Assembly (NCBI GenBank): GCA_902599045.1
Contig: CACKEA010000002.1
Location: 226,501 to 290,500 of the forward strand
Length of the DNA stretch: 64,000 nucleotides
Direction of reading: 5' to 3'
DNA from: an uncultured Alphaproteobacteria bacterium
Lineage (GTDB): Bacteria; Pseudomonadota; Alphaproteobacteria; HIMB59
Notes under the pieces: generated by a model
What the model was told of the DNA's origin: nothing
Seen by the model: only the letters and a program-made list of their open reading frames with translations
Databases searched by the model: none
Translations under genes and position numbers: made by a program
Part shown: piece by piece, positions 39,336 through 49,133 of the stretch
Position numbering within the stretch: the stretch's first letter is position 1
Layout: each line of letters starts with the position of its first letter

Positions 39336-40454
39336 TTAGTCTAAACTCTTAAAACCGTAACCAGTTTTTTTTACTCTTGTTTTAAAATAATTCTTATTAA
39401 ATTTATTTATAGTAGGTTTTGTATTTATTTGTTTAACTATTTTAATACCAGCTTTTTTAAGTGATGATACTTTAGTGAAATTATTTGTAATAATATTGAC
39501 CTTATTTACTTTTAGTAACTTCAATATTTTTGCAGCTATATTAAAATCTCTTTCATCATCTAAAAAACCTATATTGTGATCAGCGTCAATTGTATCCAAA
39601 CCTTTCGATTGAAGAGAATAAGCACGCATTTTATTAGCTAAACCAATCCCTCTGCCTTCTTGATCTAGATATAATATGATTCCACCTTTATTTTTAATCA
39701 TATAGTTGATGGAACTATTTAATTGCTCCCCACAATCACATTTTCTAGAGTGAAATATATCCCCCGTAAAACATGCAGAGTGTATTCTAAGATTTGTAGG
39801 CTGTTTTAAATTTTTTGGTTTAATTATAATTGCAATATGTCTTCTAGCACCAATATAAGATTTAAAAATATTAAAAGATGTTGAAGACACATTAGGGAGT
39901 GGAACATTAGCACTAGAAACTAATTTTATACTATTTGTGATAAATTTATTCTGATTTTTAAGTTCTTTGTGATTAAATTTTAACAAACCAAGTTGTAAAA
40001 TTAGATTATCAATATTTTTAAAATATTTAGAATTAATTTTTTTAAAAACAAGTGAGGGAATAACTTTAGCATTTTTTGCTATATCTAAGCAGACATTATG
40101 AAAGTCTCTACTTTTATTGCAAACTACATTTTTAAATAATAATTTATTTTGATTAGATAAGGGGTTAATAAATAAATTTAAAATTGATTTATTGGATATT
40201 TTTTTATCAATTTTTAAGAATATATTAGATGTGATTTTATTATTGAAAATAGATTGCGCTTTTTGTTTTGTAATTAAAAGATATTTTTCCTTTAGTAAGT
40301 ACTTATTAAATTGATTTAGAATTTTATTTTCAGAGTGTTCAATATTAAAGAACATCCAATAGTTTTTATTATCTTTTATAACTATTGGTCTTCCCGTTCT
40401 TAACTCATTGATAGATCTATCAATAAAAGTACCATAATTTGATTTTAAACTCAT
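39336..40454 (-). CDS. ribA: GTP cyclohydrolase II with divergent N-terminal extension
   Basis: RIHSACFTGDIFHSRKCDCGEQL (Zn Cys motif); YLDQEGRGIGLANKMRAYSLQ. Confidence 0.9.
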   Translation of the reverse strand: MSLKSNYGTFIDRSINELRTGRPIVIKDNKNYWMFFNIEHSENKILNQFNKYLLKEKYLLITKQKAQSIFNNKITSNIFLKIDKKISNKSILNLFINPLSNQNKLLFKNVVCNKSRDFHNVCLDIAKNAKVIPSLVFKKINSKYFKNIDNLILQLGLLKFNHKELKNQNKFITNSIKLVSSANVPLPNVSSTSFNIFKSYIGARRHIAIIIKPKNLKQPTNLRIHSACFTGDIFHSRKCDCGEQLNSSINYMIKNKGGIILYLDQEGRGIGLANKMRAYSLQSKGLDTIDADHNIGFLDDERDFNIAAKILKLLKVNKVNIITNNFTKVSSLKKAGIKIVKQINTKPTINKFNKNYFKTRVKKTGYGFKSLD

Positions 40455-40492
40455 AGACTATATATATACTTAATGACTGTTGATACAGATGA

Positions 40493-41326
40493 TTGATGAT
40501 AACAAAGCATAATATTTCCTCTCTATTTGAGTTTGTAAAAAATCAAAAAAAATCAAATAATTTAGGAGTTGATTTAATTAACAAATCGTTTGTCCTTAGT
40601 CAACATTCTAAAATAGCTGATATTTCAATAAACAAATATAAAGTTGTATTTAATTGTAAAATTGAAAAAAAGATTGAAGAAATTGGCCAAATATTATTGC
40701 CTATCTTAATGTTAAAAAAAAAATTTTATATTGGACAAATAGGCCAAAGCTTAGATGGTAAAATTGCTCTTTTAAATGGTAATTCTCATTATATAAACGA
40801 TAAAAATAGTATTTCTTATCTTCATAGTCTTCGTTCAATATGTGATGCTGTGGTGGTGGGGGTTAACACTATCAGAAAAGATGACCCTTTATTAACTACA
40901 AGAGCTATTAAGGGTCCAAACCCTCAACGAATAATTATCGATCCCTCATTAAAATTAACAAATAAATATCAAGTGTTTAAAGATGGTATGCCTAATATTA
41001 TATTTACCCATTCTAAATTAAATAAAAAATTTAATAACACTCAAATATACCAATTACCTGAAAGAAATTTTACCAATCTTATTTACCAAAATATTAATAG
41101 ATTAGGATATAAATTAGTATTAGTTGAAGGTGGTTCTAAAACTATATCTAAGTTTCTTGAAAATAAATTATTAAATATTATGCAATTTATTATTGCACCA
41201 ACTATTATCGGCTCTGGAATTAATTCTATAAATATTGAGCCTATAACTAATTTAAAAAATGTTATAAGGACCAAAAACAATATTTTTAAGTTTGGTAAAG
41301 AGATTATTGTAAGTTTAGAGTTTTAA
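40493..41326 (+). CDS. RibD C-terminal / DHFR-like reductase family protein
   Basis: GQSLDGKIAL; DAVVVGVNTIRKDDPLLTTR; LVEGGSKTISKFL. Confidence 0.85.
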   Translation: MMITKHNISSLFEFVKNQKKSNNLGVDLINKSFVLSQHSKIADISINKYKVVFNCKIEKKIEEIGQILLPILMLKKKFYIGQIGQSLDGKIALLNGNSHYINDKNSISYLHSLRSICDAVVVGVNTIRKDDPLLTTRAIKGPNPQRIIIDPSLKLTNKYQVFKDGMPNIIFTHSKLNKKFNNTQIYQLPERNFTNLIYQNINRLGYKLVLVEGGSKTISKFLENKLLNIMQFIIAPTIIGSGINSINIEPITNLKNVIRTKNNIFKFGKEIIVSLEF

Positions 41327-42103
41327 AGCTAAAAAATCTTTATTCCTTAATAATAATTTAGATTTATTAAGTCTGATATTTTCCCTTCTAAATTTTATCC
41401 ACGGTTCTAGGGAAATTTTATTTTTTTTAATAACGTTTTCGCAAAAGTTTATAAACATGTCTTGAAACATTTTATTTTTGGACACATTCCAATTTGAATT
41501 AAGTACAAAAGTTTTATGAGTTTTTGTGAAAACTTTATTTATTATTTGACTACAATTTTTTCCAACAGCTTTTTTTCCGATTCCTTTATCAGACTCCTGA
41601 TCTTTATTAAATAGTTGTAGAACATATTCATCATCTTTGTGTTTTGGATAAAATTTAAAATATCCATCATAATTAATTGAAAAATATATTACTTTTGTAT
41701 TTAAGTTCTGTTTCTTAAATTCATGAAACCACTTTTTGGGCATTATATCTAAATATGCTGATCCAGTGATAAGATCGTAATTTTCAAATTTAAATTTTTT
41801 TATATCTTTAATTAAATCAAATTTTTTATAATTAATATTAATAATTTTATTTGTATTAGCTGTTATTTTTTTGAACTCTTTGATTGACTCAAAAGATATA
41901 TCAATCATATCCCATTTTTGCTTAAACTTTATCTTAGGATACATATATCTATAGTTTGATCCTGTACCACATCCTAAATCTGCTATAGACAATATTTTAT
42001 GATCTTTAAAATATTTGTTTATTTTTTTGATTATTTTTTCATTTCTTGAAATTGCATCAATCTTTTCTCTATAAAATAGCCAATCATTATTAAATTTATG
42101 CAT
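41315..42103 (-). CDS. Class I SAM-dependent methyltransferase
   Basis: SIADLGCGTGSNYRYM; WDMIDIS. Confidence 0.85.
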   Translation of the reverse strand: MHKFNNDWLFYREKIDAISRNEKIIKKINKYFKDHKILSIADLGCGTGSNYRYMYPKIKFKQKWDMIDISFESIKEFKKITANTNKIININYKKFDLIKDIKKFKFENYDLITGSAYLDIMPKKWFHEFKKQNLNTKVIYFSINYDGYFKFYPKHKDDEYVLQLFNKDQESDKGIGKKAVGKNCSQIINKVFTKTHKTFVLNSNWNVSKNKMFQDMFINFCENVIKKNKISLEPWIKFRRENIRLNKSKLLLRNKDFLALKL

Positions 42104-43139
42104 TTTTAATTTCCTTTATGAATAAGTCTGCTGACTGTATGGGTGTTAGAAACTTTCTTTGATTTTTTCTGATCTTGTTTTGAATTTTAACATTATTAAA
42201 ATTTCTTAATATCAATTTTGACAAACTTTTTTCTTTAAAATCATTTAGATATATAATTCCATCTTTTTTAAGTGTGTTCATTAAAGTTAGAGTTTTAAAT
42301 GTGATTATCATTTTTTTTTGCTGTAGTGCATTTGCAAGGGACATCCCAAATCCTTCATATCTACTAACAGATATATAAAAATCACACTGTGAATATAGCT
42401 GTGATAAATGTTTTGTTGAGATATTGCTATAAAAACTTATTTTTTCTTCTAGTCCATAATTACTAATTATGTTTTGTAATTTGTTATAATATTTGCTCTC
42501 TCTTGTTGTATCCCCAACAATTTTTAATTTTACATTATCAATAAATCTTAATTCTTTAATGAGATATTGGTAATTTTTTCTCTCAATAATACTGCCAACT
42601 GATAGCAAATTAATATTTTTATCTTTTTTGACTTTAAATTTTTTTAATTTTTCAATTCCAGGCTCTACTATTTGAATTTTTTGTTTATTTATTTTAAATT
42701 TTTGAGCAATTAAATTTTTTGTTTCATTTGAAGTGACAATAATTTTGTTAGCTTTTGGATATAATTGCATTGCTTGCTTAACAAAATATTTACTTCTTTT
42801 ACTTTTAAATTCTAAATAAATAGGGTGATGTATTAATGCTATTATTTTGAATCTTTTAAGATTGACTATGATTTTATCAATAGTTTCAAAGACTAGTCCA
42901 TCAAAAACTAAAACTGAGTTATCTGATAGTTTATTTATAATATTTTTAAGAGTGATGATATCATTTTGTTTTTGAAAAGGATAATTTTCACTTAATTGAA
43001 AAGCTTTTAAATTAAAATTTAGTGTCTTAGCTCTTTGTAAAATATTTTTTTCATATATATATCCACCTGTTTTAGTATTAATGTCTCCAGGATAGAAAAA
43101 ATAGTAGGTTCTATTTGATTTCGTTGATATTTTGTTCAT
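42096..43139 (-). CDS. Glycosyltransferase family 4-like
   Basis: LLSVGSIIERKNYQYLI; CDFYISVSRYEGFGMSLANALQ. Confidence 0.85.
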   Translation of the reverse strand: MNKISTKSNRTYYFFYPGDINTKTGGYIYEKNILQRAKTLNFNLKAFQLSENYPFQKQNDIITLKNIINKLSDNSVLVFDGLVFETIDKIIVNLKRFKIIALIHHPIYLEFKSKRSKYFVKQAMQLYPKANKIIVTSNETKNLIAQKFKINKQKIQIVEPGIEKLKKFKVKKDKNINLLSVGSIIERKNYQYLIKELRFIDNVKLKIVGDTTRESKYYNKLQNIISNYGLEEKISFYSNISTKHLSQLYSQCDFYISVSRYEGFGMSLANALQQKKMIITFKTLTLMNTLKKDGIIYLNDFKEKSLSKLILRNFNNVKIQNKIRKNQRKFLTPIQSADLFIKEIKNA

Positions 43140-43518
43140 AAGAAGCCCAAGCTACATTTGACTCGGTTAGAATAATTTTAATTTTATGTAACTTGTCATA
43201 ATCTTCTGAGTATTCTTTTTGTAACTTTGAGCTTATTTTATCAAATATATCTTTAGCTAGGAATTCAGTAGATGTTATTGTGTTTTTAAATTCTTCAATT
43301 TCATCTAAATTTTTGTAACTATAAAATTTAAGTACATCAGATAGTATCTCTGTTACAACTCCTAAATCCATAATGATATTATATTTATTAACTTCTTTTG
43401 CATAAAACTCTGCATCAACTATATAGGTTGCACCATGCATATTTTGGGCGGGACCAAAGACTTCTCCAGGTAGTGAATGTGCTATTAAAATATTGTTTCT
43501 TACTGTTATTGAATACAT
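43111..43518 (-). CDS. 6-pyruvoyl-tetrahydropterin synthase / QueD-like protein (divergent active site)
   Basis: IAHSLPGEVFGPAQNMHGATYIVDAEF...IIMDLGVVTEILSDVL resembles the PTPS fold pattern. Confidence 0.7.
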   Translation of the reverse strand: MYSITVRNNILIAHSLPGEVFGPAQNMHGATYIVDAEFYAKEVNKYNIIMDLGVVTEILSDVLKFYSYKNLDEIEEFKNTITSTEFLAKDIFDKISSKLQKEYSEDYDKLHKIKIILTESNVAWASYEQNINEIK

Positions 43519-43519
43519 A

Positions 43520-44482
43520 TCAATACTTTATAGCATGCATTACGCTGTCTGGATTATTTATTATTGAAATATAATTTTTATCTAATTTGTTAAAGTCACT
43601 CTCTGTATTGACCAGTTTGAGAAGTTTATTATTAGACAACGCATCGATTGCCATGTTCAATCTACTTTTATAATTAAATCTTTTTGACATATATCTTGGT
43701 ATGTTAGAAACCTGAGAGCCAATTATTTTAAGTCTTTTGGAGTGAAAATTCCCTCCCAATTTGATCTGTCCTTTTTTATTACCATACCAACTTGCTTCAA
43801 TTAATTTTCCTTCTAATGTTAATTTATCAAGAGACTGATTTAATACTTCATAATTAGATGTAGTGTTAATTATTACATCAGCTTCTTTAATTTTTTTAAA
43901 ATTAGTGAATTTTAATCCTAATATTTTTGAAAACTTCTTCTTTTTGATATTATTGTCAGTGATATATACATTTTTAAATTTTTTTAATTTATAGTAGTAA
44001 GCGGTTAAAATACCAACAGAGCCCATTCCTAAAATTACTATTTTGTTATTCTTATGTGCTTGAGCATCCCAAAAGATATTAATTGCTGTTTCCATATTTG
44101 CTGTAAGTAAATATTTTTTTAAATTATTATTACTTTTCAAGATATGCACATCATTTATATCCATTTCAAACAAGGACTGATGAGGAAAGAGACAAAAAGT
44201 TTTTTTATTTAAATATTTTTTTGGACCATTGATAACTTCACCTACATTTATATATCCATATTTAATAGGATAAGAAAATGTTCCTTCTTGAAAAGGTGAT
44301 TTCATGATTTTAAATTGATCTTTACTAATTTTACCTGAGGCAACTAATTTCTCTGTTCCTTTACTGATACCCGAATAGTGTGTCTTGATGAGAACAGTTT
44401 TAGAATTTACTTTAAAATTTAAAGATTTTTTCTTGATAATTGGTTTATTTTTATTTTCAAGCCATAGAGAATAAGTTTCCAT
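43520..44482 (-). CDS. Zinc-type medium-chain alcohol dehydrogenase-like protein
   Basis: HYSGISKGTEKLVASG; KSPFQEGTFSYPIKYGYINVGEV; Rossmann VILGMGSVGILTAYYYK. Confidence 0.78.
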   Translation of the reverse strand: METYSLWLENKNKPIIKKKSLNFKVNSKTVLIKTHYSGISKGTEKLVASGKISKDQFKIMKSPFQEGTFSYPIKYGYINVGEVINGPKKYLNKKTFCLFPHQSLFEMDINDVHILKSNNNLKKYLLTANMETAINIFWDAQAHKNNKIVILGMGSVGILTAYYYKLKKFKNVYITDNNIKKKKFSKILGLKFTNFKKIKEADVIINTTSNYEVLNQSLDKLTLEGKLIEASWYGNKKGQIKLGGNFHSKRLKIIGSQVSNIPRYMSKRFNYKSRLNMAIDALSNNKLLKLVNTESDFNKLDKNYISIINNPDSVMHAIKY

Positions 44483-44511
44483 AATAATTATATAAATGTT
44501 AAATATCAGTT

Positions 44512-45270
44512 ATGCTATCAAAGTTTTGGATTGATTTAACTTCAGATGACATAAAAAAATTAGGTAAAAATAAAGTACTTATTATGCCTTTTTCATCTGT
44601 TGAGCAACATGGCGACCATCTACCTTCAGGTACTGATAAATTGATTTTAGACGGTATTTTAAATACTTTTATTAAAAACAATCCAAAATTAAATAACTTT
44701 TTAGTTTTACCAAATATCTCAATAGGATCAGCTAGTGAGCATAATAGCTTTGAAGGCACTATCTCAACAAGTTCTACAAATTATATTGATTACATTATTA
44801 GTGTAGTAGAGGATTTATGTATTCGTAAATATAAAAAGTTTGTCTTCTTAAATAGTCATGGAGGACAAATTAGTCATTTAGATATAGCTGCAAAAGAAAT
44901 TAAAAGCACATTCAAAAATGTCGATATAGTGAAGGCTCATTATTTTTTATTTAAAGGTTTTGAAAAAATTATTCCTAAAAAAGAACTGCTTTATGGTTAT
45001 CATGGAGGTGAATTTGAAACCTCAGTTATGCTTCATCTTCATCCAGAATTGATAAAAATTAATAAAATTAAAAAAAGTAAACTCTCATCTGATATTAATT
45101 CAAAAAAAATTATTTCTTATGAAAAAACAATAAAAAGAGCTTGGAACACAAAAGATTTGTCGGAAACAGGCATAATAGGTAATCCTACAAACTCCTCTGC
45201 AGACAAAGGAAAGAAAATCCTAGATCTTGCATCAAGAACCTTAAAAAAAATAATTAATGAAATGAAATAG
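44512..45270 (+). CDS. Creatininase-family amidohydrolase
   Basis: MPFSSVEQHGDHLPSGTD; FLNSHGGQISHL; YHGGEFETSVML. Confidence 0.9.
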   Translation: MLSKFWIDLTSDDIKKLGKNKVLIMPFSSVEQHGDHLPSGTDKLILDGILNTFIKNNPKLNNFLVLPNISIGSASEHNSFEGTISTSSTNYIDYIISVVEDLCIRKYKKFVFLNSHGGQISHLDIAAKEIKSTFKNVDIVKAHYFLFKGFEKIIPKKELLYGYHGGEFETSVMLHLHPELIKINKIKKSKLSSDINSKKIISYEKTIKRAWNTKDLSETGIIGNPTNSSADKGKKILDLASRTLKKIINEMK

Positions 45271-45374: not shown

Positions 45375-46865
45375 ATGAAAATAGCAAATAGAGGTAATTG
45401 GATATCTATTCCAAAAAATTTAGATAAATTTTGGCGAGAGATAGATATTAGACTAATAAATGAGCAACACTACCTTGATCAAGTTTATACAAAAGAAATT
45501 AAGCACAATAATACATTATTTTTTTCAGAGTCAGATGTATTCCATATTAATTATACGTTAAGTGGCTCACATGTTGATTTATGCATTGATAATTTAATTA
45601 AACTTCTTTATTTAAATCAAAAACTTTCTAAATCTTTAAAAGAAAATATTAGTGACGCCTTAAAGGGAATATTGGCAAATGCACTTTTATCTTATCATAA
45701 ATTTGGTGGCTCTGGTTTTGTCAGAATAAAAAGTGGTAATGATGAATATAATAAAAATAGATATAACCCTTTGATGACCAAAAAAAGCACTTTAGATGTC
45801 CTAGACAAATTAACTAAGGTTGGACTGATTGAATATTACTCTGATAAGTTTTTGGAAAGGAGATACAAGAATAAGATAAAAAAACATTTCTTAAGATACA
45901 GATTTAAATGGGAAATATTTACAAAATTTATTGAGTATGAAATAGGATACAAAGATTTATATCGAGTAAGTGATTTTGTTATGCTCAAAGGCCCTAAAAT
46001 TAAATCATCAATAATAGAAACTTCTAAAAATTATAAAGATACAGATGAAACCAAAAAGATGAGAAAAGATTTAGAGAAATATAATGACTTATTACGCAGA
46101 AATCATATGAATATTAGCGGAAATTTGATTGATCAAGAAGGTAAGGACTTTCAGTTTCAGAATTATGGTAAAAGATTTTATTATCGTGTCTTTACTAAAA
46201 ATAATTTTAGTTGTGGTGGTAGATTTTATGGTCATTGGGTATTAGAAATACCAGCCTTAGCTAGACAGTTTCTTAACATTAATGGAAGACCAACTAGGCA
46301 AATAGATTATTCAGCATGTTTACTGCATATAATGTATTCGACGCTTAACATTGTTCAACATACTGGCAAAGATTTATATGCAATGGTTGATGAAGATAGG
46401 TCATGGGTAAAGGCCTTTTGTATTATAGCACCTAACACAATTAAATTAAGAGATGCATGTGAGCAGACAGTTCAAGAATTAGGACTCAAATGGAATAAAA
46501 AGAATGAAAAAAGAGTATACAAACTTGCCAATTTGATTTCTAAGGCTCATAGTGAAATTTATAATGCTTATTTTTTTAAGGGTAATGTTAATGGACAAAA
46601 ATTTATAAATCATGAATCAAATATAGCTAATGAAATAATCATGCACTTTGTGAATAAAGAAATATTAATTCTATCTGTAAATGATGGTTTTATTATTGAG
46701 AATAGATACAAAATAGAATTAGTGCAAATTATGGAAGATAAGTGGGTTAAACATTGGAAAGCTAGAGGATTAAATTCATCTAAACCATTGATAAGAGAAA
46801 CTAAACATTTAACTGCTTACAATAGTCCAATTGAAGATATCTTCGATAAGTATGTTCCTTTGTAA
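45375..46865 (+). CDS. Uncharacterised 496-aa protein with motifs resembling a family A / T7-RNAP-like polymerase palm
   Basis: GGRFYGHWVLEIPALARQFLNINGRPTRQIDYSACLLHIMYS (motif A-like D311), DRSWVKAFCIIAPN (R342xxxK346, motif B-like), ILSVNDGFIIE (motif C-like D437). Confidence 0.5.
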   Translation: MKIANRGNWISIPKNLDKFWREIDIRLINEQHYLDQVYTKEIKHNNTLFFSESDVFHINYTLSGSHVDLCIDNLIKLLYLNQKLSKSLKENISDALKGILANALLSYHKFGGSGFVRIKSGNDEYNKNRYNPLMTKKSTLDVLDKLTKVGLIEYYSDKFLERRYKNKIKKHFLRYRFKWEIFTKFIEYEIGYKDLYRVSDFVMLKGPKIKSSIIETSKNYKDTDETKKMRKDLEKYNDLLRRNHMNISGNLIDQEGKDFQFQNYGKRFYYRVFTKNNFSCGGRFYGHWVLEIPALARQFLNINGRPTRQIDYSACLLHIMYSTLNIVQHTGKDLYAMVDEDRSWVKAFCIIAPNTIKLRDACEQTVQELGLKWNKKNEKRVYKLANLISKAHSEIYNAYFFKGNVNGQKFINHESNIANEIIMHFVNKEILILSVNDGFIIENRYKIELVQIMEDKWVKHWKARGLNSSKPLIRETKHLTAYNSPIEDIFDKYVPL

Positions 46866-47746: not shown

Positions 47747-49133
47747 ATGAAAAAAAATTCCTACATATTAGAGGCACAAAACTTTCTTAAAAATAACCCA
47801 GATATAAAATCATTTGATATTGTTATGCATGATTGTAATGGTATTGGTAGAGGAAAAATAATACGTCGGAACGAATTAATTAAAATTTATAAATCTGGAA
47901 GACAATTTCCTCTCTCTTTAATGGGCATGGATATAACAGGGGAGGACGTCCCAGAAACAGGATTAATATTTAATCAAGGAGATGGCGACATCAAAGCCTG
48001 GCCTATCCCCTCATCACTTAAACCAATACATAAATCCAAACCCGCAAGGGGAGAATTATTTATGAACATGCATGATATTAAAGGGAATAAACTATCTACA
48101 GATCCTCGCAATCAATTAGAAAAAAAAATTGGAGAGTTTAAAAAAAAAGGAATTTCTTTTCGTGCAGCTTTTGAACTTGAATTTTTTTTAGTTTCAAATG
48201 AATTAGATGAATATGGAAAATTGAAGCCAGCAAAATCAGTATTAGGAAAAAAATCATCTAGACGTAAAACAGATGTTTATTCAGTTGATATCCTTCATGG
48301 CATGTTACCTTTGTTTGATGATATTTATGAGGCTACAGTATTAGCAAATATTGAAGCTGAAACAATCATATCAGAATACGCTCCTGGTCAATATGAGCTA
48401 ACACTAAAACATCAAAATTCTATCCTTAAAGCTGCTGATGATATTTTGAGATTAAAAAAGAATAATAAGAGCTCAGGCCAGATTACATGGTGTTACTGCC
48501 TGCTTTATGGCCAAACCTATGGAGGATGTTTCAGGTTCTGGCATGCACTTTCATATTTCTCTTTATAATAAAAAAAATAAAAACCTTTTTGCTGAAAAAA
48601 ATAAAAAAAAAATAAGTAAATATTTGTCCTATGCTTTAGGTGGATTATCAAAAACTATGGGAGAGAGTATGTTAATCTTTGCACCTAATGCAAATAGTTG
48701 GAGGAGGTTTAAAAAAGGCTCATATGCTCCCATTAGTCCAAACTGGGGAATTGATAATAGGTCTGTAGCTTTTCGAATACCAAGCAGTGATGTTCAAAAC
48801 ACAAGAATCGAACATAGAGTTTCAGGTGTAGATGCAAATCCTTATTTAGTAGCGCTAACAGTTGTTTCAGCTATTGAGAAAGGATTTAAAAATAAAATTG
48901 ATGCAGAAAGGCAAACAACTGGTAATTCTTATTTAAAAAAAACTTCTAGCAAAAATAAAATACCAACAGATTGGAACTCTTCGATTAATTTATCAAAAAA
49001 ATCTTTATTTCTAAAAGAAACCTTAGGACCAGAATTGCATAAAGCCTTTATAGCCATAAAAGAAATGGAGTACAATAAAGTAGCTAGTACTGTTTCAGAA
49101 CTAGATATAGATTTATATTTGGACTCTATTTAA
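47747..49133 (+). pseudogene. Glutamine synthetase-like (GlnA/PuuA family), split by a 1-nt frameshift in an A6 run
   Basis: ORF 47747-48568 gives the N-terminal part (AAFELEFFLV...GQYELTLKHQNSILKAADDILRLK); frame of ORF 48507-49133 gives ...RAQARLHGVTACFMAKPMEDVSGSGMHFHISL...; deleting one A at 48454-48459 joins them. Confidence 0.85.

Follow-up and report, generated by a model that had tools for sequence, protein, structure and literature searches.

Seven contiguous genes at positions 39336-45270 of a 64,000-nucleotide stretch of DNA from an uncultured alphaproteobacterium (GTDB lineage HIMB59; GenBank assembly GCA_902599045.1, contig CACKEA010000002.1, positions 226,501 to 290,500) are the subject of this analysis, and probably form one compact biosynthetic unit that starts from GTP. 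The whole stretch is called the window, and its host genome (1.37 Mb in 16 contigs, 94.8% complete) is referred to as G000; in composition and gene content it is similar to streamlined marine Alphaproteobacteria such as HIMB59/AEGEAN-169. With the families assigned by Pfam and NCBIfam, the following genes were found:

39336-40454, minus strand: GTP cyclohydrolase II (GCHII), 372 amino acids (Pfam PF00925 GTP_cyclohydro2, 2e-47; NF006456, 268 bits)
40493-41326, plus strand: RibD_C-type reductase without a deaminase domain, 277 amino acids (PF01872 RibD_C, 3e-29)
41315-42103, minus strand: class I SAM methyltransferase (MT), 262 amino acids (PF13649 Methyltransf_25, 1e-6)
42096-43139, minus strand: GT4 glycosyltransferase, 347 amino acids (PF00534 Glycos_transf_1, 7e-24; family alignment)
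43111-43518, minus strand: PTPS-fold protein of the FGPAQ (PTPS-IV / SCO6650) subfamily, 135 amino acids (PF01242 PTPS, 6e-22)
43520-44482, minus strand: BchC-like medium-chain dehydrogenase (DH), predicted to be zinc-free, 320 amino acids (weak ADH_zinc_N; BchC TIGR01202, 6e-14)
44512-45270, plus strand: creatininase-superfamily metal hydrolase, 252 amino acids (PF02633 Creatininase, 5e-54)

Coordinates and families of these open reading frames agree with a preliminary description of the locus made from the letters alone, and the short gaps and overlaps mentioned there were measured as 38, -12, -8, -29, 1 and 29 bp (range -29 to +38 bp). The G+C content of the block is 24.3%, compared to 28.5% for the window. 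Same-genus relatives carry the block colinear with the window's seven genes, and a second family of the order (f2; genomes G019, G022, G024 and G030) carries all seven with order and orientation unchanged, 49-72% identical to those of the window. The flanks in f2 all differ from those of the window; judged by eye from the sequence, they comprise a citrate-lyase-like/succinyl-CoA-synthetase-type block at one end and, at the other, a peroxiredoxin-like gene. As the same seven genes stand between different flanks in two families, the unit consists of exactly these seven. A search of G055, a complete single-contig genome from the same genus, found neither the DH nor the PTPS gene, and such patchy occurrence points to an accessory, probably transferable unit.

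The co-conservation that the preliminary description had named as a check was indeed observed: all seven genes recur across families of the order and their core across Pseudomonadota, with versions in Streptomyces and Microbacterium and, in part, in haloarchaea. Even genome samples and a loose first look gave lower bounds of 32 of 392 good Pseudomonadota genomes for the PTPS-like gene and 25 of 187 good alphaproteobacterial genomes (about 1 in 8 sampled) for the DH gene. Subsequent annotation of 40 Pseudomonadota loci with hidden Markov models built from the cluster proteins, covering the fetched flanks, revealed the core DH-PTPS-GT4-MT colinear on one strand in 37, together with RibD in 34, GCHII in 16 and the creatininase-type hydrolase in 7. 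The linkage is reciprocal: of 23 loci selected through DH, 22 have PTPS, and the 17 selected through PTPS all have DH. Accessory families recur as well, namely an MdoH-like GT2 (15 of the 40 loci), a CDP-alcohol phosphatidyltransferase (14), cytochrome b561 (11), an FkbM methyltransferase (9), an LPG-synthase TM protein (8) and YceI (7). Named organisms outside the sampled genomes come from an annotated plasmid collection, in which whole or partial clusters were detected in Rhizobiaceae, Rhodobacterales, Methylosinus, Thiodictyon, Streptomyces and Microbacterium; all seven window genes occur in Streptomyces globisporus, accompanied there by genes for a CDP-alcohol transferase and an LPG-synthase TM protein. 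A gene for the MdoH-like membrane GT2 glucosyltransferase was seen near DH, mostly divergent, in L018, L137, L140-L142, L145-L147, L160, L163, L165, L167, L168 and L171-L173.

The GCHII domain of the window protein is C-terminal (residues 183-343, PF00925 above cut-off) and follows an N-terminal half that is RibB-like/PRK08815-type. Residue alignment showed that its three zinc cysteines (C...CDC), the EGRG motif and the active-site Tyr of ILYLDQEGR are all intact, and because of these residues it should make 2,5-diamino-6-ribosylamino-4-oxopyrimidine 5'-phosphate (APy). The same Tyr is present in every cluster GCHII examined, including two from Streptomyces. The RibD-like protein is not a bifunctional RibD, as Pfam detects RibD_C only and neither an HAE nor a PCxxC motif of a CMP/dCMP-type deaminase domain was found in its N-terminal 80 residues. 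Its profile has the APy reductases 6p8c (8.5e-44) and 2azn (3.3e-40) as best solved relatives, ranked above RibD proteins. The absence of the deaminase domain and this closeness to APy reductases lead to the prediction that the ribosylamino chain is reduced before any deamination, with the 2-amino group kept.

The other PF00925 copy in G000 is a RibBX (G000:C3:51344; L042:6327-7400) whose GCHII half has neither the zinc cysteines nor the EGR motif. It is encoded on another contig in a rib operon with a full deaminase-reductase RibD, RibE, RibH and NusB, leaving the window GCHII as the only intact one in the genome. The preliminary description had named a sole ribA/ribD as an argument against a separate pathway, which applies to the GCHII and fails for RibD. 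Its statement that ribB, ribE, ribH and queC are missing from the window was checked at the level of the genome, where the rib operon lies on the other contig and QueC has weak partial matches only, none of them in the window. Same-genus genomes without the cluster have another GCHII (about 44% identical), and f2 genomes encode a standalone ribA alongside the cluster GCHII, which argues for a dedicated role of the latter in that family.

The PTPS-like protein carries the FGPAQ signature at residues 21-25, the G, P and A positions of which are kept in 49 of 49 aligned members. It matches SCO6650 (PDB 3d7j) with 1.9e-32 by sequence and 7e-62 by profile, and by these matches is a member of the PTPS-IV / SCO6650 (FGPAQ) subfamily. 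In all 49 aligned members HGH is changed to HGA, with loss of the third zinc His, and the catalytic Cys is absent, while Asn-Tyr mostly stands in place of the Asp-His pair. The Glu that anchors the ring in T-fold enzymes, Glu119, is invariant in 50 of 50 members. The window protein fails the motif tests for QueD/PTPS-I, PTPS-II and PTPS-III (CxxxHGH, CxxxxxHGH and ExxHGH; zinc triad; Asp/His) and scores 40 bits against the QueD model (cut-off 89). From the lost catalytic residues and the lost zinc His no PTPS or QueD chemistry is expected, so the QueD-like label of the preliminary description had to be given up. A literature search found no published activity of this subfamily. One study reported 561 PTPS sequences of the FGPAQ type, listed PF00925 and PF01872 as neighbours and offered no pathway (PMC5445326).

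The zinc ligands of medium-chain dehydrogenases (Cys of GICGSD, and GHE) are replaced by SGIS(R/K)GTE and YGY in essentially all of the 51 DH sequences, the equivalent of Cys46 being Ser. Therefore, what had been described as zinc-dehydrogenase-like is, by sequence, not a zinc enzyme. BchC (TIGR01202) is its best NCBIfam hit, yet with 52 bits against a cut-off of 291 it is not BchC. The MT belongs to an unassigned family that adjoins GT4 in nearly all sampled loci; an AlphaFold2 model (pLDDT 94) has generic small-molecule methyltransferases as nearest folds (3mgg, TM 0.65). When the cluster proteins were searched against defence systems, no credible match was obtained, the sole hit being a weak one of the MT to mad2. 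In the creatininase-type hydrolase the metal ligands E31, H33, D42, H116 and E169 are intact, and the protein stays below the NCBIfam equivalog cut-offs for MftE (109 vs 172) and creatininase (90 vs 235). Its family, as named in the preliminary description, is confirmed by the PF02633 match, but the deformylase role suggested there is not required, as the APy-type Tyr of the cluster GCHIIs removes the need for a deformylase. An obligatory function as deformylase of the formylated pyrimidine FAPy is weakened accordingly. Outside the order of the window the gene is an accessory, seen in the 7 of 40 loci and in Streptomyces clusters.

Haloarchaea carry the cluster in part only. Both GTP cyclohydrolase II and the unrelated GTP cyclohydrolase III open GTP, giving a formamido- or diaminopyrimidine. 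In Natrarchaeobaculum, a GTP cyclohydrolase III (PF05165, 1.7e-87) is encoded directly before DH, and in Haloarcula pelagica a CDP-alcohol transferase, GTP cyclohydrolase IIa, DH, PTPS and MT follow in a row. The strongest evidence for a pathway that begins from GTP is this replacement of GCHII, at the same position, by the unrelated GTP cyclohydrolase III (IIa). With about 26% identity the PTPS of haloarchaea is more remote, and it retains a zinc-like HSHH motif; a creatininase-family protein was found near one haloarchaeal cluster. In Haloarcula marismortui (L021:8937-9374) the cluster PTPS gene appears frameshifted relative to H. pelagica.

Co-conservation and the swap of cyclohydrolases support the proposal of the preliminary description that the genes serve a single pathway, leading from GTP to a pterin- or pyrimidine-type product that is glycosylated and/or methylated. 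We consider it probable that the cluster converts GTP via a diaminopyrimidine, reduced with retention of its 2-amino group, to a glycosylated and methylated metabolite of the pterin type as candidate product. Gene content, linkage and the state of the active sites were read directly from the sequences, and from the enzyme families we infer the opening of GTP to APy by GCHII and a reduction prior to deamination, in which the deaminase-less RibD_C protein would turn the ribosyl into a ribityl chain with the 2-amino group staying. The order and the substrates of the DH, PTPS, GT4, MT and creatininase steps, as well as the product, are conjecture. The BchC-like DH might oxidise a hydroxyl of the ribityl side chain to a ketone, which could then condense with the 5-amino group. 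Reductase and DH together would thus equal in net terms the Amadori step of GTP cyclohydrolase I (GCHI) and give a dihydropterin. The FGPAQ PTPS-fold protein may bind the 2-amino-4-oxo ring via its Glu and help in ring closure or in a rearrangement of the side chain, leading to a pterin-type bicycle. GT4 would add a sugar and the MT a methyl group, and the creatininase-type hydrolase may take off an acyl, formyl or amide group at some step. As a bolder and tentative suggestion, this may be an undescribed route from GTP to pterins via GCHII, in which RibD-type reductase and DH replace the Amadori rearrangement of GCHI and ring closure falls to a catalytically rewired PTPS fold. The pterin, once glycosylated and methylated, would be a new cofactor common to Proteobacteria, Actinobacteria and those haloarchaea that start with GTP cyclohydrolase III.

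The gene trees of the cluster members correlate (Pearson 0.49-0.84), which favours the preferred pathway from GTP, but such a correlation by itself can reflect shared species history and does not separate co-inheritance from it. Other observations weigh against the pathway. GCHII lies inside the fetched flank in just 16 of 40 loci, so most genomes must supply it from elsewhere, and as the only intact copy in G000 the cluster GCHII probably also feeds riboflavin there. Furthermore, two Streptomyces plasmids have the FGPAQ PTPS gene alone (L187:8001-8426 and L188:8001-8399), one of them beside a MEKHLA-domain gene.

A rather improbable alternative is that the product is, or is attached to, a redox cofactor anchored to a lipid or the envelope. 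The ring compound would be glycosylated and then tethered by means of the CDP-alcohol phosphatidyltransferase; the LPG-synthase-TM-like protein would move it, cytochrome b561 and YceI would service it, and the window would hold a stripped-down version. This would account for the recurrence of these families and the MdoH-like GT2 in the Pseudomonadota neighbourhoods, and the CDP-alcohol transferase is also found in the clusters of Streptomyces, Microbacterium and Haloarcula. However, none of the accessory genes is universal, none stands beside the clusters of the window or its order, and CDP-alcohol transferases, b561 and YceI are common genes.

Less likely still is a product of the flavin or lumazine type, a toxoflavin-like azapteridine or an F420-like deazaflavin instead of a pterin. 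GCHII and a RibD-type reductase are indeed common to the flavin, toxoflavin and deazaflavin routes, and the toxoflavin cluster shares with the window the three enzyme classes GCHII, RibD-like protein and methyltransferase; toxoflavin loci are not known to have a PTPS-fold protein, GT4 or BchC-like DH. PTPS-IV has also been placed in F420 synthesis, as unpublished work, by a study that calls the role of PTPS-V unclear (PMC5041015). Against such products, the RibD-like protein has no deaminase and the cluster therefore no means to remove the 2-amino group, the PTPS fold and its Glu anchor suit a 2-amino-4-oxo ring, and neither FO synthase nor lumazine synthase was among the recurring named neighbour families, F420 genes not having been searched genome-wide.

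A known pterin route, be it to queuosine (QueD), to biopterin (PTPS-II) or to folate (through PTPS-III or a stand-in for missing FolE), is very unlikely, even though protein databases label the PTPS gene 6-carboxytetrahydropterin synthase. The residues lost in the PTPS family, as described above, argue against all three, and a genome search for QueC gave weak partial matches only, none of them in the window, with queE not searched for. For folate, the absence of GCHI from the order's tested genomes together with HPPK in six of seven might favour the cluster as a source of pterins. However, GCHI (PF01227) was not found in the tested genomes of the order (range G000-G029) with or without the cluster, the HPPK-bearing G020 is among those without it, and GCHI is present in 13 of 13 tested cluster carriers from outside the order. 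A role of the cluster as a simple substitute for FolE is therefore rejected. GCHY-1 (PF02649) was likewise not found in six tested genomes of the order. Finally, a coincidental neighbourhood of a housekeeping ribA and unrelated genes, for which the sole intact GCHII of G000 and the promiscuous superfamilies of MT, GT4 and creatininase could be cited, is hardly credible and is rejected by synteny, given the same seven genes between different flanks in two families, the reciprocal linkage across the phylum, the actinobacterial and archaeal versions and the standalone ribA in cluster-bearing f2 genomes; it could hold only if all of this linkage were neutral hitch-hiking.

For the preferred pathway from GTP to a modified pterin, several known systems can be compared. 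The bacterial riboflavin pathway (RibA, RibD, RibBX, RibE, RibH) has the same GCHII first step and a RibD-type reduction, but the cluster is without deaminase, RibE and RibH, and G000 encodes full RibD and RibBX in a rib operon apart from the cluster. The route to flavins in archaea, which uses GTP cyclohydrolase III and the creatininase-type deformylase ArfB, resembles the haloarchaeal clusters in its cyclohydrolase and in reduction before deamination; it differs in that the Tyr-type GCHII of the bacterial clusters should need no deformylase and that a creatininase is present in 7 of 40 loci only. The window PTPS matches SCO6650 of S. coelicolor, the structure of which reportedly lacks the zinc and the catalytic triad while a pterin-like pocket is kept. 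SCO6655, a GCHII encoded near SCO6650, reportedly releases formylated FAPy because of a Met in place of Tyr, and in this the cluster GCHIIs examined, with their Tyr, differ from it. Closest is cluster-node 62 of the AGeNNT study, a PTPS-IV FGPAQ group with the same signature and with GCHII (PF00925) and RibD_C (PF01872) in its genome neighbourhood (PMC5445326). The main text of that study names just these two neighbour families and calls PF00925 a FolE2/GCHI domain, whereas here DH, GT4 and MT accompany the PTPS gene more constantly than GCHII does, and the archaeal swap comes in addition.

Literature searches, which reached few subscription journals, found no description of the complete cluster. 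At most, the contribution made here is the full cluster, its exact boundary, the archaeal variant and its failure as a queuosine or folate route; the position of FGPAQ PTPS beside GCHII and RibD_C had already been noted (PMC5445326). A gene set kept across two bacterial phyla and, in part, in haloarchaea is very likely to produce a widespread small molecule or cofactor absent from metabolic maps. In routine annotation its members appear as queuosine synthase, zinc alcohol dehydrogenase or riboflavin genes. The seven-gene minimal version in a 1.4 Mb genome suggests a short pathway, and places a PTPS-fold protein of solved structure in a context.

Two further observations concern the neighbourhood of the cluster. 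Between the cluster and a tRNA-Cys gene lies an open reading frame of 496 amino acids (45375-46865) with no match in Pfam, NCBIfam or PADLOC, which is also present in G003 (its start also in G012) and missing from other same-genus genomes; it looks like a recent insertion beside the tRNA gene. At 47747-49133, a glutamine-synthetase-like gene is split into two overlapping open reading frames in different frames (273 and 208 amino acids), where same-genus relatives have a single one of 461-484 amino acids; the frameshift responsible is either genuine or due to faulty assembly.

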